Of a DNA stretch of 62,936 bases, positions 2,920 through 38,299 are shown one piece after another. Made by a program: the position numbers and the translations under genes. The DNA is from Coleofasciculus sp. LEGE 07092 (GTDB lineage: Bacteria > Cyanobacteriota > Cyanobacteriia > Cyanobacteriales > Coleofasciculaceae): contig NZ_JADEWY010000020.1 in the NCBI RefSeq assembly GCF_015207375.1, positions 1 through 62,936 on the forward strand, read 5' to 3'. The number at the start of each line of letters is the position of its first letter. The stretch's first letter is position 1. The notes under the pieces were generated by a model. The model was not told the origin of the DNA. It searched no databases and saw nothing but the letters and a program-made list of their open reading frames with translations.

Positions 2920-3085
2920 TTGCACCAGTGGCAACAACCCGTCAGTGGTTAAAACCACTGTCTCATAGCTTGCATTCGTCTTGCATAGGACTGGATAAGA
3001 CTTGTAGTCCATTTCAATGGACTTAAGCTATTAGCCCAGAGTTAAAACTCCGGGCTAGTTTTCGGGTTTACTGACAATGGTGCAA
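2920..3085. repeat. MITE-like structured repeat, copy 1
   Basis: About 166 bp bounded by TTGCACCA and TGGTGCAA. Inside are at least two hairpins: AGTCCATTTCAATGGACTT, and a TAGCCC..GGGCTA stem around 3030-3058. A closely matching copy lies at 49955-50122 and a partial copy at 50131-50200. No coding capacity. It fills most of the 456-base gap between the helicase and the transporter operon; the remainder (3086-3344) holds only HIP1 sites near 3098 and 3143. Confidence 0.75.
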
Positions 3086-3344
3086 GATGTGAGCATAGCG
3101 ATCGCGTTTCTCGTTCTCCTTGCATCTCACATCATAATCTAAGCGATCGCTCCTTACAGCAGTTCCCGATGTTATGAAGTACAGTTGTCTGAGTTTGCCA
3201 GCGCTGGCAGATGGCGTTAGCAATATCTGAGGGTGAAGACAAATGTGCTGAACTCACTGCACCCCCCAATTCCCGCCAGAGAGTGTTGATAGTTCATTGG
3301 GTGAGAACCGTGAACCATGGCTACATCAGCGATTGTTGCAACCA

Positions 3345-4238
3345 TCACCCCTTAACCGAACCCGCCAAAATCCCCCGCACAAAATACCGTTGAAGCGCAA
3401 AAAATACAATGAGCGGCACAATCATCGTAATAAATGCACTCGCGGTCAGCAAGTGCCAATCCTCCCCGCGAGAACCCACCAATGTAGTTAAACGCATCGT
3501 TAAAGGTGCAACGTCTGGTGTCCCTCCCAAGTAAACTAAAGCTACCAACAAATCATTCCACACCCATAAAAACTGAAACACGGCAAACGAAGCGATCGCA
3601 GGTAGAGAAAGGGGTATAATTAACCGAGTAAATGTTGTCAAATGAGACGCCCCATCTACGGCGGCGGCTTCAATTAAATCCTTTGGTAACGCACCAATAT
3701 AATTGCGCAGTAAATAAATTCCCAGAGGCATTCCGTAACCCGTATGGGCTAACCAAATTCCTAAAAACGAGCCTGATAATCCAAACAGATTGTAAGCTCG
3801 CAACACTGGAATTAAGGTCATTTGTAATGGTACGACTAATAAACCTACTACCGTAATAAATAATACCTGACGACCCGGAAACTTCATCCAGGCAAAGGCA
3901 TAGGCAGCAAAGGTAGCAATGGCAATAGGAATTATCGTAGCGGGAATGGCAATGGTAAGACTGTTAAGAAACGCTTGCCCCATCCCTTCGGCAGTGAATA
4001 CTTCGATATAATTCCCTAACTGATACTGAGTGAAATCAAAGGGGTGTTGAAACACCGTCCACCAACCACTATTCAATAGGTCATCTCGGTATCGTAAGGA
4101 ACTAATAAATAACCCCATAGTAGGTAATGTCCAGATTAAAGAGATGACAACTACAGCTAAATGAACCGGGACGCTGTTGCAGAATTTCTGAAGACGTTTC
4201 ACTGAACTATCTTTACGAGAATGTTTCTTAGGCTTCAT
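3345..4238 (-). CDS. Sugar/compatible-solute ABC transporter permease (MalG/GgtD type)
   Basis: Inner-membrane permease of 297 residues with about six hydrophobic segments. It carries the binding-protein-dependent transport loop with the EAA-type motif (EAAAVDGASHLTTF...IPLSLPA, about residues 188-215), which contacts the ATPase. It overlaps the preceding permease by four bases (ATGA), so the two are translationally coupled. With the upstream binding proteins it resembles the ggtB-ggtC-ggtD set for glucosylglycerol, sucrose and trehalose uptake in Synechocystis. As in that organism, no ATPase gene is adjacent. Substrate is inferred, not shown; AglG-like alpha-glucoside transport is an alternative. 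Confidence 0.85.
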   Translation of the reverse strand: MKPKKHSRKDSSVKRLQKFCNSVPVHLAVVVISLIWTLPTMGLFISSLRYRDDLLNSGWWTVFQHPFDFTQYQLGNYIEVFTAEGMGQAFLNSLTIAIPATIIPIAIATFAAYAFAWMKFPGRQVLFITVVGLLVVPLQMTLIPVLRAYNLFGLSGSFLGIWLAHTGYGMPLGIYLLRNYIGALPKDLIEAAAVDGASHLTTFTRLIIPLSLPAIASFAVFQFLWVWNDLLVALVYLGGTPDVAPLTMRLTTLVGSRGEDWHLLTASAFITMIVPLIVFFALQRYFVRGILAGSVKG

Positions 4239-28194: not shown

Positions 28195-29265
28195 CTACTC
28201 TTGATCTTGAGGTCTGGTAATTTCAGCCTCCATCTCTGATGCCATTGTATTCAACTCTATCTCTAGCTGTTCTAGGGTTGGTAGATTGCCCTGGAGTGTT
28301 TGAGGCAGAGAATCCTTCAGTTTATAAGTCGAAATGCCAATGGGCTTGTTGAGATCACGCAGGGCATATTCGGCTACTGTCTTCTTTTTCCCTCTGCACA
28401 AGATGATGCCGATGGTGGGTTGGTCATCTGAGTGACGTAGCAAATCGTCCACGGCTGAGATGTAGAAGTTCATCTTGCCCGAATACTCCGGCTGAAACTC
28501 TTTCATTTTCAGATCGATGACCACATAACAGCGCAACCGCAGATGGTAACATAACAGGTCGATGTAGAAATCGTCTCCTTCGATTTCTAGGTGATACTGG
28601 CTCCCTACAAACGCAAATCCTACTCCTAACTCCAGCAAAAAGTCACGGATGTGGTTGACCAAAGCACGTTCTAAATCTCTTTCCTGGACTTCCTCACCAA
28701 GACTGAGAAACTCGAAATTGTAAGGGTCTTTCAATAGCTGCTGTGCCAGATCGGATTGAGGCTTGGGGAGTGTTCGCTCAAAGTTGGTGAGTGCAGCGCC
28801 CAATCGACGGTGTAAACCCGTTTCAATTTGGTGAACGAGAACATTACGGCTCCAGCCGTGTTCGACGGTTTTCTGGGCGTACCACAGCCGCTCCTCTGGC
28901 GATTTCAACTTCTCAATCAGGGCGATGTTGTGATACCAGGTAATTTGTGCAAGCACCTCTTGCACAATTGGTTCATTCGGGTAAGCTTCAGCAAAAGCTC
29001 TCATGTACTTGAGGTTACGTGGCGAGAACCCCTTCATATCAGGGAATTCCTTCTGTAAGTCACTCGCTAGCCTATCGATCACCTTAGCTCCCCATCCCTG
29101 CTGTCGCTGCCTGGTCAGGATATCTTGTCCAAGTTGCCAGTAGAGCAGCACCAATTCCCGGTTGACTGAAAGGGCTGCCCGCACCTGGGCGCTCCTAATG
29201 CGTTCTTTCAGGTCATGCAAGAAGTCATCATAGTTCTCTGGGATGGGAGATGGTCGCTCCGACAC
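28195..29265 (-). CDS. DUF1016/YhcG-type PD-(D/E)XK nuclease-domain protein
   Basis: Protein of 356 residues. N-terminal DUF1016 winged-helix-like part (LKERIRSAQVRAALSVNREL; KGFSPRNLKYMRAFAEAYP), C-terminal nuclease part with DDFYIDLLCYHLRLRCYVVI ending in DLKMKEFQPEYSGKMNFY, which supplies the D...(D)xK pattern, and PTIGIILCRGKKK. Such proteins are typical of accessory regions and are linked to restriction or mobile DNA; biochemical role is poorly known. It stands alone, with no adjacent partner. Confidence 0.88.
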   Translation of the reverse strand: MSERPSPIPENYDDFLHDLKERIRSAQVRAALSVNRELVLLYWQLGQDILTRQRQQGWGAKVIDRLASDLQKEFPDMKGFSPRNLKYMRAFAEAYPNEPIVQEVLAQITWYHNIALIEKLKSPEERLWYAQKTVEHGWSRNVLVHQIETGLHRRLGAALTNFERTLPKPQSDLAQQLLKDPYNFEFLSLGEEVQERDLERALVNHIRDFLLELGVGFAFVGSQYHLEIEGDDFYIDLLCYHLRLRCYVVIDLKMKEFQPEYSGKMNFYISAVDDLLRHSDDQPTIGIILCRGKKKTVAEYALRDLNKPIGISTYKLKDSLPQTLQGNLPTLEQLEIELNTMASEMEAEITRPQDQE

Positions 29266-29632: not shown

Positions 29633-32260
29633 ATGCAACCGACTAATCCTAATCAATTTACAGAAAAAGCCTGGGAAGCGATCGCCCAAACGCCAGATAT
29701 TGTCAAAGCTTCCCAGCAACAACAAATCGAGAGCGAACACCTGATGAAAGCGCTACTCGATCAAAATGGACTCGCTACCAGCATTCTCAGTAAAGCTGAA
29801 GTATCCGTGCAGCGAGTGCGCGAAGCAACCGAAAGCTTCATCCAACGCCAGCCCAAAGTATCTGGTAGCAGCGGTTCTGTCTACCTCGGACGCAGCCTTG
29901 ATACCCTGTTAGACCGAGCTGACTCCTATCGCAAAGAACTTAAAGACGACTACATCTCGATTGAGCATCTGATGCTAGCGTATGTCAAAGACGATCGCTT
30001 TGGCAAAGCCTTATTCCAAGAATTTAAACTGGATGAAAAGAAGCTTAGAAGCACGATCACCCAAATTCGGGGGAACCAGAAAGTGACCGACCAAAACCCA
30101 GAAGGCAAATACGAAGCACTGGAAAAATACGGACGTGATTTGACAGAGGCGGCACGGGAAGGCAAACTTGACCCAGTAATTGGGCGGGATGATGAGATTC
30201 GCCGCACCGTGCAAATTCTCTCTCGCCGTACCAAAAATAACCCGGTACTCATTGGGGAACCCGGAGTGGGTAAGACTGCTATTGCCGAAGGATTAGCACA
30301 GCGCATTGTTGCGGGTGACGTGCCTCAGTCTCTCAAAGATCGGAAACTGATTGCCCTAGACATGGGCGCACTAATTGCAGGTGCCAAGTTTAGAGGTGAA
30401 TTTGAAGAACGCCTGAAAGCGGTACTCAAAGAAGTCACCGACTCCAAGGGGCAAATCATCATGTTCATCGATGAAATCCATACCGTCGTCGGTGCAGGTG
30501 CTACCCAAGGGTCAATGGATGCGGGGAACTTGCTCAAACCCATGCTGGCTAGAGGCGAGTTGCGCTGTATTGGTGCTACCACCCTAGATGAGTACCGCAA
30601 GTATATCGAGAAAGATGCGGCATTAGAACGGCGGTTCCAGCAAGTCTACGTTGACCAACCTAGCGTTGTCGATACTATCTCAATTTTGAGAGGACTCAAA
30701 GAACGCTACGAAGTTCACCACGGCGTTAAAATTTCTGACAGCGCCCTAGTTGCTGCAGCGACCTTATCAACGCGATATATTAGCGATCGCTTCTTACCCG
30801 ATAAAGCCATTGACCTCGTTGATGAAGCGGCGGCACGGCTGAAAATGGAGATTACCTCCAAACCCGAAGAACTTGATGAAATCGACCGTAAAATCCTCCA
30901 GTTGGAAATGGAGAAGCTGTCGCTGCAAAAAGAAAGCGACCCCGCTTCTATTGAACGGTTAGAACGGCTGGAAAAAGAACTGGCTAACCTTAAAGAAGAC
31001 CAGCGCACCTTGAATGCCCAGTGGCAGTCGGAAAAAGACGTAATTGAGCGAATTCAGGGCATTAAAGAAGAGATTGACCGAGTTAATCTGGAAATTCAGC
31101 AGGCAGAGCGCAACTACGACCTCAACCGAGCGGCTGAGTTGAAATATGGCAAATTAACTGAGTTGCAAAAATCTTTGCAGGCAGCAGAAACCAATTTAGC
31201 TGAAACCCAAACCAGTGGTAAATCGCTGCTACGGGAGGAAGTGACTGAGTCTGATATTGCTGAAATTATCTCCAAGTGGACGGGTATTCCCATCAGCAAG
31301 TTAGTAGAGTCAGAGAAAGAAAAGCTACTGCACCTCGAAGATGAATTACATCAGCGCGTAGTAGGACAAGAGGAAGCCGTTGCTGCGGTTGCCGATGCGA
31401 TTCAGCGATCGCGTGCAGGTTTGTCTGACCCCAATCGCCCAACTGCTAGCTTCATTTTCTTAGGTCCGACGGGTGTAGGTAAGACAGAATTAGCGAAGGC
31501 GCTAGCGGCTTATCTATTCGATACCGAAGACGCCATGGTGCGGATTGATATGTCCGAGTACATGGAGAAGCACTCTGTCTCCCGCTTGATTGGAGCGCCT
31601 CCAGGATACATTGGTTACGAAGAAGGCGGTCAACTTACTGAAGCCATTCGCCGCCGTCCTTATGCGGTGATTCTGTTTGATGAAATCGAGAAGGCGCACG
31701 CCGATGTCTTCAACGTAATGCTGCAAATTCTTGATGATGGTCGCGTCACCGATGCTCAAGGTCATACGGTGGACTTTAAGAACAGCGTCATCATTATGAC
31801 CAGTAATATTGGTTCCCAGTACATCTTAGATGTTGCTGGAGATGATTCGCAGTATGACGAGATGCAGAGTCGGGTGATGGATGCGATGCGGACTAACTTC
31901 CGTCCGGAGTTCCTGAACCGGATTGATGAAGTGATTATCTTTCACGCTCTGCAAAAACATCAGTTGCGCAATATCGTCCTACTGCAAACTCAGCGCTTAG
32001 AACAGCGGTTAGGGGAGCGCAAGATGTCTCTGAAGCTCTCGGAAGCTGCCATTGACTTTTTGGCAGATGTAGGGTATGATCCGGTATTCGGCGCACGACC
32101 ACTGAAGCGAGCCATTCAGCGAGAGTTGGAAACCCAAATAGCTAAAGGCATCCTGCGGGGTGAGTTTAATGATGGCGACACTATTTTTGTGGATGTGGAA
32201 AATGAACGATTGGTATTCAAGCGCCTGCCAGCAGAGTTGCTGACCACTCACTTAGGCTAA
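29633..32260 (+). CDS. clpB: ATP-dependent disaggregase ClpB
   Basis: Class 1 Hsp100 protein of 875 residues: N-domain, AAA+ module 1 (Walker [29 protein letters not shown]), the long coiled-coil middle domain (about residues 410-530), and AAA+ module 2 ([28 protein letters not shown]). With DnaK it resolubilises aggregated proteins. It lacks a ClpP-binding loop as far as seen. ATG start at 29633; strong terminator follows. Confidence 0.96.
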
Positions 32261-33841: not shown

Positions 33842-34134
33842 AATTCTGTCAGACTCAAGTCTGGGGCTATATAAATATAGATGCCTGCTAGGGCGGCTTT
33901 CTGTAGGGTAGCGTGCCTAGGTAGGCTTTTTATTTTTCTTATCTTTTCTGGTTTGGAGTTGGCGTAAGTTTCTATTGCTATCCACCCATCGGCACCACTA
34001 ATCACTGCTAGGAAAGCGATCGCCTCCAAGATTGCATCACGGAGGTGGTGAGCTTTGACAATCGTTGACAGGATTACCGGGTATAGATTGAGCCGTATTG
34101 TCTGGCAGCGCCTGTTCCTCATGTATATCCCCAA
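33838..34134 (-). pseudogene. ISAs1-family transposase N-terminal remnant
   Basis: The frame encodes AHHLRDAILEAIAFLAVISG followed by ADGWIAIETYANSKPEKIRK, the conserved N-terminal DDE-associated block of ISAs1-type transposases (H.L.D.L..A..AvI.GAd.W..IE.y...K..w). The DDE catalytic part is absent. It overlaps, in another frame on the same strand, the last ~33 codons of the nuclease-like gene at 34037-34795. Confidence 0.72.
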
Positions 34135-34795
34135 AAATCTGTAGAATCAGATGGTGACAACGAAAATCACGGGGGTAATTTTTGCCTTCTGGAACTGTGC
34201 GCTGATGGTCTGAGGTTTTGTGGTAGCGAGTTGGAAATCGCGGATGGTGATTTAGCTCACAATCAAGCTTAGCTTGAATACTTCTAAATGCCTTGTTTGG
34301 TTCGCTTGAAAGAAGATAGCCCAACATTCCCCCCTCACTGGAAAACGGTGCATATCGACATTTAAGGAATTCATTTTTAATGTCTTTTACATAGGGAGCA
34401 ACTGCCTTTACAGAACGCAAAACTTTAGCTTCTAAAGGCCACATAATTCCTGGTTTATCATACAGAACAAACGCAATATCATACTGTGGCGATTGCGCTG
34501 GTGGTGGCATTCGAGTCTCAAATTCGTAGGGACCATGCTCAACTGAAAATGGCTCATCTCCCGTCATCCGTTTGCGAATCATTGGCACAAAACGTTGAGT
34601 TATACTCCTTTCCAACTCCTCATAGTCTTGATTCCAGTTAATTTGCGATAGAACTTCATGCAGCAGATCGTATCCGTCCCAGACAAATGCAAGGAGAATC
34701 ATTGACGCATCTCCACACCACTCTTGAGCTAATTGAACAAAGTCAGGTGTATTTGGTAATCGCACTTCCAGTATCGTTGGTCGTCTCCTAGCCAC
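34037..34795 (-). CDS. Putative PD-(D/E)XK restriction-endonuclease-like partner
   Basis: Protein of 252 residues with no full family match recalled. A candidate nuclease core is PQYDIAFVLYDKPGIMWPLE followed by AKVLRS: Asp-106, Glu-122 and Lys-124 fit the D-x(n)-ExK catalytic pattern. GTG start one base after the stop of the upstream methylase gene (TAG-C-GTG), so the two are translationally coupled. The C-terminus (from about DIHEEQALPDN) runs into an ISAs1 transposase remnant and is probably replaced sequence, so the native 3' end may be lost. Nuclease activity is an inference. Confidence 0.6.
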   Translation of the reverse strand: MARRRPTILEVRLPNTPDFVQLAQEWCGDASMILLAFVWDGYDLLHEVLSQINWNQDYEELERSITQRFVPMIRKRMTGDEPFSVEHGPYEFETRMPPPAQSPQYDIAFVLYDKPGIMWPLEAKVLRSVKAVAPYVKDIKNEFLKCRYAPFSSEGGMLGYLLSSEPNKAFRSIQAKLDCELNHHPRFPTRYHKTSDHQRTVPEGKNYPRDFRCHHLILQIFGDIHEEQALPDNTAQSIPGNPVNDCQSSPPP

Positions 34796-34796
34796 G

Positions 34797-37700
34797 CTAT
34801 GACTTCTCCACGACCTGCAATTCTCTATCCAATTCCGTGCGCGACATCATAATATCTGCGGCAACCTCATCAGCATCTCGTAAAGCCATAGAGCGAGTCC
34901 AGTAACGGATTTTGTCAGGCTTGATTAAATAGATAGTGGGAACTGTTAGCCCATTCCATTGAACAGAATCATATACCTTGGCAACACGCTGATAAAATAT
35001 TCCACCATCTTCTGTATTCCCTTTCTCCAAGAACATTTGATTCAACCTCTCCAATCGTTCCAATAACTCGAGAGAATCAACAGGCTCTATATTTACCCCT
35101 TCACAGTTAGGTCTGTTGAGATGAATTGCTACTAAGCGGACAGGAAGGTGAGTTATGTTCTGCTCCTGAAAGATAGTAGCGCAGACATTCTTATCCTGAC
35201 CGAATCCTGCTTTGAGGACTCTCAAGAAATACTCGCAATATACACTCAACTCTGGCTCAATCTGTCTGTGCGACTGCCTTTGAGCGCTGCGGCAAGTTTT
35301 CTGCCGCCCCGGAGAAGAACCGTCCCCTTTAAAATCTGGCAATGTGTAATTAAAGAGATCCTCAATCAGTATCCACTCACTGTCTTTAAAGGAGAATGCT
35401 TGACGGATGCAGCGATCTACATCGTCAATCGTCTCAATGTTCTGTACTAATCCTGGGCGAGGATCGGGAATTGGTACGTGCAATAAGTCTCCTGGCTTAA
35501 CTTCTGGAATATAAGATGCAAAACGACCGCTTGAAAGTAGTAGATAATACACTGATAGCTTGCTGTTGTAACTTAAGCAGGCTGCTTCTAAAACTGAAAT
35601 ATCCTCCTCATAAACATGAACGCTGACGTAACTTTCAGAGCAAATAATACCTTTATTTGTCTGTCGATCCAATTCAGCTATAGCAGATTGAAATCTTTTA
35701 GAGTCTGCCTGCCAACTTTGTTTTATTATCAACTGTGGTGACTCAAAAGCACTTGACTTCTCTTTTCTTGGACGCTCTGCATATGGATCTTCGTTAATAT
35801 CAAGAAGTTCTGTATTAAGGTAAATAAAAGTTCTATCAGGAAATTTTTTTTCTTTTAAAATCCGTCTTTCCAAAAGCGCTTCATGCCGCTCTTTACGATT
35901 ACCTCTAATAATACCTTGAGCAGACACAGCGATCTGACTATTTTCCAGCTTTGCCAGACTATTTAGTTGCTTCAATCTCCGAAGAAGAGCTAGATCGCGT
36001 CTTCCCCCCCACATTAACGCTGTCCACACTAAAGGATCTATTATCGCCTCTTGCTGGTAAATTATATTGATATCTTGTAGCTCCATAACTATGCGATAGT
36101 CATCTTCATTTGTGCGAACTGGCTTTGGACAGATGTATGTCAAAGGCTTATCATCTGGAGGTATCGAGGACATTGTGATGATGCAAGCAGGCGAAATAGC
36201 TTCTTTGAAGAGTCCAAAACGCAATGCGGCTAAGTTAACTATTTCCTCAATCTTAAATTCTGAAAACAGCTTTTCTCGGAATTTTTTAGCCGTCGTAACC
36301 TGATTAAAAATCAGGGCAAGAGCAGGTTGCATCATTGAGATTTTTCCACTAGCCTTAGTCAAGGCAGCCGCTTTGGACAAAAAGAGGGGACCGATATTGC
36401 CGTAAGGACTGATCCATTCATTTTCTTTTGCCCAAGACTTGGCAAGTGAAGTCATACTATTCTTGCCCCAAGGTGCATTACCTATGACCAAATCGTACTT
36501 TGCAGCATCTGCAACTGTACGGAAACCTTCTATATCTTCTCGAAAGAAGTCTTTATCTATCAATCGTCGCTTTCGTAGTATTGGAAAGTGAACCTCCTGC
36601 CAATAATGCCGAGGATCGATTTCATCGCACATAGTCAGGTAGAGACTAAAAGATGCAACCCTTACAGCTTGACGATTGACATCAACACCAAACAGATTAC
36701 ACTCAAGCAGAGATTGCAAGATATTTGATGTTATTTCCTCACCCGGATGAGCTTTCTTCCAACGATGAATTAGTCGTTGAAATGCTTTTACTAGGAAAAT
36801 CCCCGATCCACAAGCAGGATCGAGAATCTTCACATCCCAAACTTCACTATCCCAAGGAAGAACACCATCAAGGATAAAGTCAACTATGTGTCCCGGCGTG
36901 TAGTGAACACTTATATCAGAATCATTTTCTCTAACGAATTCTTCATATATACTGCTGATAAAATCTAGCGGTATTGCATCAAAGGAATACTGGGGCCAAA
37001 GACAACGTTGTCCACTTTCCATCTCCAACTCACCACTAACAAACTCTGTAAGTAGATTGAGGTGTCGCTGAGTAACCTTTCGTTCCTCTGCTTGCCATTC
37101 AGCTTCACGTTCCGTTTCTGTAGCTCCTTTTCCGGGGAATAAATCTCCATTGAATTTATCGTTTAACCAGCGAAAAAACTTATAAGTGTCTCTGTGGTTT
37201 TTTAAGATTTCAGGTAAATCACGGTATCTAACAGATAATTCTCCAATTTCATGCAAGTGAGCAAGAAATTCTGCATTCAGAGCAGGATTGCCCTGAGAGT
37301 CTTTCCGATCGAATAGGAATTGAATGAAAATAATTCTTGCTAGTAAATCGTGGATAGTGTCGTAATCGAGGTTCAGCCTTCTTAGTTGCCGACGGACACT
37401 CTTGAGGTTGCTTAGTAGCATCTGGTCAGCAGAATGGCTTCGTTGAAACCGCTCTTTATGTTCTTGGAAAAACTGACCAGACACCAAATCAGCCCAGTGG
37501 AGGCGTAGGGTTTCAGCAGCCTGTTGTGAGAGAGAGGGTTGACCGAGCGATTCAAGCTCTCTCCTTGAAATTTCATCGACTGGGGTGAGGATATCAGACT
37601 CAGTTGGTGGTTCTTCGTAACACGTCCAAACTCTTAAACGGTCTGGCTCTGACGTGATCAATGAGGGGGATCGGGAGAAACTCCATGCGAGTCTATAGGT

Positions 37701-37967
37701 TTCTCTAAGGGTAGCCTCTGATACTGGTCTTTGGAAATCGCAGACTACAGCAATAGGCGCTTCAGTTTCGTCTCCGTTAGGATTTGCTGCCAGCACTCCT
37801 ACTTGTACACCAGCCCCATCTGGAAGGTTTCTGATAGTTCTTTCCAGTTTTTCTCGAGCAAGCTGCGCATAAATACTCGATCCAGCCCCAGATGGTTGCC
37901 AAATTTGACTGGGATTGGGCCAGTAAAGCTTCTCATGAGCCAGTTCTAGTAGTCCAGACTGCGGCAT
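34797..37967 (-). CDS. Eco57I-like N6-adenine DNA methylase
   Basis: Protein of 1056 residues. SAM-binding motif X/I: HYTPGHIVDFIL (about 354-366) and ILDPACGSGIFLVKAFQ (383-391 core); catalytic motif IV NAPW at 497-500 in YDLVIGNAPWGKNS, a variant of NPPY/F. About 350 N-terminal residues form a separate domain (start MPQSGLLELAHEKLYW) without an obvious PD-(D/E)XK site, and a further C-terminal domain follows residue 900. No specificity subunit or translocase is adjacent. It is coupled to the nuclease-like gene downstream, suggesting a two-gene modification/restriction pair. HIP1 octamers, frequent in neighbours, were not seen in this gene, hinting at acquisition. Confidence 0.85.
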   Translation of the reverse strand: MPQSGLLELAHEKLYWPNPSQIWQPSGAGSSIYAQLAREKLERTIRNLPDGAGVQVGVLAANPNGDETEAPIAVVCDFQRPVSEATLRETYRLAWSFSRSPSLITSEPDRLRVWTCYEEPPTESDILTPVDEISRRELESLGQPSLSQQAAETLRLHWADLVSGQFFQEHKERFQRSHSADQMLLSNLKSVRRQLRRLNLDYDTIHDLLARIIFIQFLFDRKDSQGNPALNAEFLAHLHEIGELSVRYRDLPEILKNHRDTYKFFRWLNDKFNGDLFPGKGATETEREAEWQAEERKVTQRHLNLLTEFVSGELEMESGQRCLWPQYSFDAIPLDFISSIYEEFVRENDSDISVHYTPGHIVDFILDGVLPWDSEVWDVKILDPACGSGIFLVKAFQRLIHRWKKAHPGEEITSNILQSLLECNLFGVDVNRQAVRVASFSLYLTMCDEIDPRHYWQEVHFPILRKRRLIDKDFFREDIEGFRTVADAAKYDLVIGNAPWGKNSMTSLAKSWAKENEWISPYGNIGPLFLSKAAALTKASGKISMMQPALALIFNQVTTAKKFREKLFSEFKIEEIVNLAALRFGLFKEAISPACIITMSSIPPDDKPLTYICPKPVRTNEDDYRIVMELQDINIIYQQEAIIDPLVWTALMWGGRRDLALLRRLKQLNSLAKLENSQIAVSAQGIIRGNRKERHEALLERRILKEKKFPDRTFIYLNTELLDINEDPYAERPRKEKSSAFESPQLIIKQSWQADSKRFQSAIAELDRQTNKGIICSESYVSVHVYEEDISVLEAACLSYNSKLSVYYLLLSSGRFASYIPEVKPGDLLHVPIPDPRPGLVQNIETIDDVDRCIRQAFSFKDSEWILIEDLFNYTLPDFKGDGSSPGRQKTCRSAQRQSHRQIEPELSVYCEYFLRVLKAGFGQDKNVCATIFQEQNITHLPVRLVAIHLNRPNCEGVNIEPVDSLELLERLERLNQMFLEKGNTEDGGIFYQRVAKVYDSVQWNGLTVPTIYLIKPDKIRYWTRSMALRDADEVAADIMMSRTELDRELQVVEKS

Positions 37968-38064: not shown

Positions 38065-38299
38065 AGATGATGAAGTCTTCTGGGTTCAGCAAGATTGGAA
38101 AGACTTTCCGGAGAAAATGCCATTAGCCCTCAAGGTGGCGGGGAATAAGGGCAAAGATGTAGGTCAATACATCCTGCTGGTAATACCCCCACTGTCTGAA
38201 ATTGTTAACGAAGTCTGGGAAACAGCAGAAAAATCTCCAGGGGTGGATTTTGAAAGTTTTAAGCAACGGGCTAAAGCTAACTATACCAAAGTGGCATAG
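38065..38299 (+). pseudogene. Unrecognised gene fragment
   Basis: A frame beginning right after a stop encodes DDEVFWVQQDWKDFPEK, then an ATG at 38117 and a 60-residue stretch (PLALKVAGNKGKDVGQYILL ... VDFESFKQRAKANYTKVA). It reads like the coherent C-terminal end of a soluble protein whose 5' part is gone. Family not recognised; it could alternatively be a short complete gene from 38117, where GGAGAA sits too close to the ATG. Confidence 0.35.

Follow-up and report, generated by a model that had tools for sequence, protein, structure and literature searches.

The window analysed here is a 62,936-nucleotide stretch of the cyanobacterium Coleofasciculus sp. LEGE 07092 (NCBI RefSeq assembly GCF_015207375.1, contig NZ_JADEWY010000020.1, positions 1 to 62,936 of the forward strand). 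On its minus strand a gene for a large N6-adenine DNA methylase is followed, after a single base (TAG-C-GTG), by a gene for a small protein that is predicted to be a nuclease of the PD-(D/E)XK superfamily. The original prediction, made from the letters of the window, had placed both genes at these coordinates and had described a 1056-residue methylase carrying DPACGSGIF and NAPW, the one-base spacing, and D106...E122-x-K124 in the 252-residue product of the second gene. Both methylase motifs were located in that open reading frame (ORF), the spacing was confirmed in the sequence, and the three residues of the small protein are kept across homologues, hence not a chance occurrence. The features of the pair are listed below, where M, S and R stand for modification, specificity and restriction, TRD for target-recognition domain and AF2 for AlphaFold2.

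34797..37967, minus strand: N6-adenine DNA methylase with fused TRD (M~S); ORF of 1056 aa with ATG start (Pfam, PADLOC, AF2, Foldseek)
37443..37967, minus strand: methylase N-terminal domain, aa 1-175; no Pfam match, no E-x-K in the window
36795..36821, minus strand: methylase motif I (S-adenosylmethionine binding), DPACGSGIF, aa 383-391 (sequence and alignment)
36468..36479, minus strand: methylase motif IV (catalytic), NAPW, aa 497-500 (sequence and alignment)
35628..35987, minus strand: TRD core, aa 661-780, hypervariable (pairwise identity in 30-residue blocks; swaps between operons)
34848..35270, minus strand: conserved C-terminal domain after the TRD, aa 900-1040 (invariant residues and alpha/beta elements in the model)
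34037..34795, minus strand: PD-(D/E)XK nuclease, proposed R subunit; ORF of 252 aa with GTG start (alignment, AF2, VIA-align)
34478..34480, minus strand: codon of D106, predicted metal ligand (D in 46/46 readable rows)
34424..34432, minus strand: codons of E122-A-K124, predicted catalytic E-x-K (E and K in 47/47 rows)

The pair is proposed, at a probability of roughly 0.6, to be a restriction-modification (R-M) system partitioned as R + (M~S), in which the nuclease would serve as a separate restriction subunit without an ATP motor.

A genome collection was scanned for close relatives using the window nuclease alone, and nothing was found. Scanning with a nuclease alignment retrieved 48 loci from the genome collection and one locus from viral contigs; phage records held no match to the nuclease. 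Judged by record title, the hosts were Cyanobacteria, Pseudomonadota, Desulfobacterales and other deltaproteobacteria, Nitrospinia, Nitrospiraceae, Phycisphaerales, Acidobacteria, Verrucomicrobia, Chloroflexaceae, Zixiibacteriota and Patescibacteria, many of the records being metagenome bins, so that some host names may be wrong. Five of the eight whole-genome loci (L012, L013, L014, L016 and L017) were treated as repeats of named loci and not counted twice. A methylase, or a piece of one, lay directly upstream of the nuclease in 46 of the 49 loci; L053 and L056 have fewer than 170 bases of upstream sequence before the contig end, so no methylase was visible there. Using start codons picked by script, the two genes overlapped or abutted in 31 of 45 measurable loci.

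The association was equally apparent when the methylase was used as the query. A search of 386 cyanobacterial genomes yielded 24 methylase genes at E <= 1e-30 (25 rows, one gene being in two pieces), a lower bound since at most two candidates were scored per genome, and a nuclease adjoined 23 of them. For 15 far methylases (blastp identity 22-27%), a profile of 47 nucleases matched the downstream ORF in 14 (E 4e-20 to 3e-5), the next-best ORF scoring E 1.5; the profile contains no sequence from these 15 loci, which makes the test independent. The exception was L093, where the downstream stretch shows pieces of a decayed gene. A wider profile, which later retrieved ten far loci already used in building it, gave 25 places in the same 386 genomes, 23 beside a methylase and 2 fragments. 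The pair is thus a widespread, strictly coupled unit, and the gene-neighbourhood survey that had been suggested with the original prediction found it conserved in many phyla. Separately, solitary nuclease-family fragments at G000:C267:11263-11469 (L137) and G087:C20:44190-44450 (L132) had no methylase match within the fetched locus.

Hidden Markov model searches, likewise suggested as a check, placed the methylase in known families (Eco57I, N6_Mtase) and brought the small protein near the cut-off in none of Pfam, NCBIfam and PADLOC. Neither Pfam nor PADLOC gave it a match up to E 1; the sole NCBIfam row was a phycobilisome linker (E 0.25, far under the cut-off), and a PDB sequence search gave no match up to E 10. 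Seven of 14 far small proteins were run against all three libraries, none coming near a cut-off, and one more was run against Pfam. In an alignment of the window protein with 46 homologues, E122 and K124 were present in all 47 rows and D106 in all 46 rows that could be read, the remaining row being obscured by N. The homologues came from 46 of the 49 loci (identities 39-64%, one 25%), the broken nucleases of L049, L062 and L063 being left out. In a wider alignment of 23 sequences, to which far relatives (16-22% identical) were added, E122 and K124 were kept in 23/23 and D106 in 22/23. Homology among the small proteins stops at about residue 222 of 252.

The AF2 model of the small protein (pLDDT 86.1, pTM 0.80) is a confident one, in which D106, E122 and K124 sit at core strands in the arrangement of the PD-(D/E)XK motif. 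The best Foldseek match was Can2 (E 0.02), and PD-(D/E)XK enzymes made up most of the top 50, in which a few other, unrelated proteins also appeared. With VIA-align, the highest scores were those of OkrAI (Z 7.3, root-mean-square deviation (rmsd) 4.6, 143 residues aligned), BamHI (7.1, 5.8, 158) and BstYI (7.0, 4.1, 135), and most rows were again PD-(D/E)XK enzymes. As no single structural match was significant, assignment of the small protein to the superfamily relies on motif and fold jointly.

The nuclease gene is also under purifying selection, with dN/dS of 0.14-0.49 in all ten pairs tested. These values, below 0.5 throughout, and the retention of E122 and K124 in 47/47 rows (three visibly broken loci having been left out) argue against an epigenetic or orphan methylase accompanied by a nuclease that has lost its function. 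Such an explanation would account for the damaged nuclease genes in L049, in L063 and in the stretch downstream of the L093 methylase, and is considered the least probable of those weighed here.

The methylase matched Eco57I (1.6e-18), N6_Mtase (1.5e-13) and MmeI_Mtase (3.5e-7) in Pfam, and REase_MTase_IIG in PADLOC (6.3e-48, aa 150-680). Its AF2 model (pLDDT 82.4, pTM 0.81) resembled CamA (Foldseek E 9.2e-17), BpuSI (1.5e-15), PglX (2.2e-15), DrdV (2.1e-12) and MmeI (9.5e-12); VIA-align scored CamA at Z 24.8 (rmsd 3.8, 477 aligned), MmeI at 23.2 (5.3, 558) and DrdV at 19.7 (4.5, 510). On this model the protein is a gamma-class N6-adenine methylase with a fused TRD, as in Type IIG enzymes. An alignment was made of the window methylase and those of 36 of the 49 loci, leaving out L024, L029 and eleven loci in which the methylase is broken, partial or absent. 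Motif I read DP[AS]CGSG[IV]F in 36 of the 37 sequences and DPACGSAAF in one; motif IV read NAPW in 33, NPPW in three and NAPF in one. W1023, T1024, D1031 and D1033 of the C-terminal domain were invariant among the 37, and this domain is a possible docking site for the nuclease.

The large uncharacterised N-domain noted in the original prediction was indeed without a Pfam match, its size resolving in the AF2 model into a small alpha/beta domain of about 175 residues (H28-46, E55-59, E73-77, H84-97, E102-107, E110-115) plus a helical linker. It bears on the proposal that the small protein is an accessory and that the methylase by itself works as a fused Type IIG enzyme through an active nuclease at its N-terminus. 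PADLOC labels the methylase Type IIG, and an E-A-K was seen by eye at a seemingly equivalent N-domain position in three of six far relatives inspected (L102, L103 and L105). An active nuclease fused in the same chain was not found, the whole methylase matching no nuclease family in Pfam; no E-x-K occurred at the compared position in eight aligned rows inspected, the window included, and the catalytic motif conserved throughout belongs to the small protein. This explanation is accordingly held to be very improbable. There are hints in the sequences that the N-terminal domain is a worn nuclease domain, and a fused nuclease, since replaced by the detached one, may have left it behind as a relic. 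A common origin of the methylase N- or C-terminal domain with the small nuclease was also considered; profile comparison revealed no relation, leaving it unsupported by sequence.

The question of which partner holds specificity was approached through sequence variation. Among 13 close methylases, mean pairwise identity was 0.38-0.56 in the four 30-residue blocks of the TRD core (aa 661-780) and 0.61-0.90 elsewhere. Co-variation was measured on 17 close gene pairs (136 comparisons): nuclease identity followed that of the methylase core (Mantel r 0.64, p 0.0003) and was weakly related to that of the TRD (r 0.17, p 0.064). TRDs were less than 50% identical in 10 of the 13 nuclease pairs at >=85% identity, although these pairs share members and are not independent. 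In L010 and L019 the nucleases are 96% identical and the methylases about 90% identical outside the TRD, the TRDs being 37% identical; the DNA alignment of these two falls in two blocks, at about 1500-1740 and 1980-2400 of the methylase gene. The converse was seen with L011 and L019, whose TRDs are 97% and nucleases 72% identical. TRDs have thus been exchanged with no matching change in the nuclease, which favours a nuclease steered by the methylase and not one with a matched site of its own. On these comparisons, choice of the site probably lies with the methylase, and the nuclease is probably a subunit of it.

A conventional Type II system, in which the small protein would be an independent restriction enzyme with its own specificity matching that of the methylase, is in keeping with the separate R and M genes, the helix-turn-helix (HTH) gene found upstream in some loci, the Type IIP enzymes (OkrAI, BamHI, BstYI and BglII) that make up the top VIA-align rows, and the fact that about 220 aa suffices for such an enzyme. 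The partners of a matched pair should change together, however, and a 96% nuclease with a 37% TRD, or near-identical TRDs beside 72% nucleases, is the opposite; at the level of sequence, R specificity was not found to change along with M specificity. We consider this arrangement unlikely.

That the nuclease does not follow the TRD would also be expected if it were an abortive or backup effector, a non-specific enzyme restrained by the methylase and freed when a phage disturbs the latter; standalone PD-(D/E)XK proteins have been proposed as backup effectors in BREX-type loci in the available part of PMC12839542. The nuclease is nevertheless a constant partner, its gene mostly overlapping or abutting that of the methylase, and not an optional edge gene. 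In L041 (4661-7666) a methylase without query residues 603-870, which include the TRD, stands beside an intact nuclease ORF; this fits poorly with a restrained killer, the gap being either a natural deletion or an assembly error. A backup effector is judged less probable still than an independent Type II enzyme.

Besides the gene coupling, the folds and motifs, the purifying selection and the TRD exchange, the proposed R + (M~S) system is favoured by the intact nuclease ORF of L041, by regulators next to some pairs, by defence genes near L043 and L064 and by the occurrence of the pair on plasmids and transposons. Several observations weigh against it. Foldseek returned no match to the small protein below E 0.001; the best VIA-align score lies under the tool's caution level of 8, and unrelated Rep15 entries reached Z 6.2 and 6.0 in the same list. 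The correlation of nuclease with TRD is small yet positive, and the TRD itself followed the methylase core (Mantel r 0.37, p 0.0018). Changes of TRD group numbered 10 on the nuclease tree and 10 on the core tree, a count that does not discriminate, and weight was placed instead on the pairwise mosaics. A differing TRD sequence need not imply a differing target. Finally, the nuclease of L062 is truncated, and a methylase is missing from the surrounding 7 kb.

The flanks of the 49 loci (up to 7 kb, by ORF clusters) contained no recurring helicase or separate S gene, the commonest neighbours being small regulators and transposon genes. The original prediction of no specificity subunit, helicase or other partner therefore held for separate genes; it did not hold for specificity as such, a TRD being fused to the methylase. 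Its view that the pair is neither a standard Type I nor a fused Type IIG system was borne out: neither a separate HsdS nor a helicase-bearing HsdR recurred, and the conserved nuclease is a separate gene. In L060 alone, upstream ORFs appeared HsdR-like by eye. Type III systems (Mod + Res) combine an M subunit with fused specificity and a separate R subunit, Res, which carries a helicase motor; no such Res recurred in the same flanks, and the R candidate here has 252 aa and no helicase motor. With respect to the BREX, DISARM and MADS core sets, no third gene recurs besides the regulators and transposon genes, and NCBIfam models stayed far under their cut-offs.

By analogy with Type IIG and Type I enzymes, the methylase would scan DNA, bind its site via the fused TRD and methylate adenine in the host's own DNA. 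The nuclease, probably without target specificity of its own, would dock on the methylase and, when the TRD meets an unmethylated site, would cut invading DNA near that site without ATP. The order of these events is modelled on the same enzymes. The pair would in effect be a Type IIG enzyme with its nuclease detached as a subunit, and an anti-phage effect would be expected of it.

This proposal has its closest parallels in Type IIG enzymes such as BpuSI, Eco57I, MmeI and DrdV, with which the pair shares a gamma-class methylase and fused C-terminal TRD, structural matches of the window methylase to BpuSI, MmeI and DrdV, and, as proposed, both activities in one complex. The Type IIG R domain is fused at the N-terminus and described as 'permanently present' in the portion of PMC3874165 at hand, whereas in the window R has a gene of its own, downstream of the methylase gene, and belongs to a family for which no curated model was found. 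BcgI-type Type IIB enzymes are, in the same portion of PMC3874165, two-subunit relatives of Type IIG; in them S is the separate subunit and R is fused to M, and in the present pair it is R that stands apart, with S fused to M. A split Type IIG enzyme (HVO_A0006 with HVO_A0237) was proposed for Haloferax volcanii (PMC4389544, in part), likewise a detached nuclease completing a Type IIG methylase. As far as that text goes, the Haloferax nuclease represents a piece of a fused Type IIG gene, encoded in a different neighbourhood from its methylase, in contrast to the dedicated nuclease family that is coupled to its methylase across many phyla. PglX (BrxX) of BREX is also a large gamma methylase with a TRD (Foldseek E 2.2e-15); BREX genes do not recur next to the pair, and the highest score against an NCBIfam BREX model was 69 bits, the cut-off being 500. 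A BREX-related origin was considered, and the available parts of PMC12839542 and PMC10853773 do not describe the pair.

No description of the pair was found in a partial full-text library, although it may be listed in REBASE. A link to the slr6095 methylase of Synechocystis, called Type I in the accessible part of a literature listing, was not found, there being no Synechocystis record among 53 plasmid matches; presence of its plasmid in the collection was unchecked. Within the libraries and papers searched, the pair itself is apparently undescribed, the idea of a split Type IIG enzyme having already been put forward in Haloferax, and the original suggestion of an undescribed restriction or defence pair is to that extent supported, its function being predicted from sequence.

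The pair is mobile, occurring on plasmids and in V-K CRISPR-associated transposons. Plasmid pMOC1 of Methylobacterium oryzae carries it under the annotations 'N-6 DNA methylase' and 'hypothetical protein'. Of the 53 plasmid records with a methylase match, pMOC1 and six others were opened. Five of these six further far plasmid methylases had a family nuclease downstream (E 2e-25 to 1e-17); the sixth (Anaerococcus) was short and followed by a different gene. The nuclease is annotated 'hypothetical protein' in all six plasmid records that contain it.

Cas12k was identified in L029 (NCBIfam 9.3e-201, split over two ORFs) and L040 (2.6e-275); L029 also encodes TniQ (1.3e-10), TniB (6.1e-31), Mu-transpos_C (7.2e-20) and a MerR protein (3.2e-14). 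Five transposon proteins used as queries matched in 13 of 75 loci, the window not being among the 13. In L015, L029, L040 and L104 the pair is the entire content between tniQ and the MerR/cas12k end, together with its own regulator in L040, and in L095 it lies between the MerR/cas12k end and tnsC. In the following V-K CRISPR-associated transposon loci, of which some show visible decay, no cargo other than the pair was seen.

L015:5888-15330
L029:1324-10998
L040:907-10014
L095:448-7825
L104:4564-10493

Transposon pieces only were found beside the pair in L010, L024, L027 and L028 (on both sides) and, less clearly, in L011, L019, L023 and L026. R-M genes are frequent cargo of cyanobacterial V-K CRISPR-associated transposons (PMC9938897) and of Tn7-like elements (PMC8649781), and in several loci the pair is such cargo; the passages of these two papers that were available name neither the pair nor the nuclease. 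It may be that the pair helps to hold the transposon in the genome and outlasts it.

Regulatory genes accompany the pair in some loci. Among 68 loci searched, an HTH gene lay directly before the methylase in ten, overlapping its start by 4 bases in eight, and plasmid locus L138 has an HTH gene too (61% identical). Nine of the 68 have a MerR-like gene, which lies on the strand of the pair in four and is divergent in the other five; an intact relative in L066 matched MerR_1 at 1.2e-6. These genes are candidate controllers of the pair on sequence grounds. In the window one such gene persists as a remnant, of which only the last 77 codons are left and the DNA-binding half is missing.

38066..38296, plus strand: MerR-like regulator remnant, 77 codons (tblastn against the L030 regulator, 78% over 77 aa, E 1e-37)

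Other neighbours were recorded individually. The start of the large methylase in L050 is overlapped by a gene (2956-3843) for a D12-class adenine methylase, possibly a second-strand modification enzyme. In L106 (7835-11501) the nuclease gene is followed by an overlapping gene for an Eco57I/TaqI_C/MmeI-type protein, perhaps a fused Type IIG enzyme. Defence genes included Gabija GajA/GajB by L043, a Type IIG enzyme by L058 and AbiH by L064; these and the transposon genes were chosen by eye, which establishes that such contexts occur and implies nothing of their frequency. A candidate defence gene also lies in the window itself, roughly 5 kb away from the pair, and encodes a YhcG-type PDDEXK protein (28195-29265, minus strand; Pfam YhcG_C 2.7e-67, DUF1016_N 2.9e-48; PADLOC PDC-S02 1.8e-161). 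Long ORFs antisense to genes, at 35148-35450 (100 aa) and 29950-30306 (118 aa), are most likely due to chance.

A broader form of the proposal, for and against which the odds are about even, is that the pair represents a widespread unnamed class of R-M systems (R + M~S) in which a methylase-TRD chain steers a small motor-free PD-(D/E)XK subunit that itself lacks specificity. One nuclease would then serve many specificities, new sites arising by TRD swap alone, and the class would be spread by plasmids and by V-K transposons that carry nothing else as cargo.

Known systems combine the three functions as R+M+S in Type I, as R~M+S in BcgI and as R~M~S in Type IIG. The arrangement proposed here, a motor-free R+(M~S), would if true fill a gap among them and would show how specificities can share one nuclease. 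Pfam, NCBIfam and PADLOC contain no model of the nuclease family, so the methylases that partner it will probably pass for Type IIG enzymes or orphans. Simple TRD swaps could yield new enzymes, provided that the TRD steers cleavage. The pair would also be relevant to the transfer of DNA into cyanobacteria and to the question of why RNA-guided transposons carry R-M genes.

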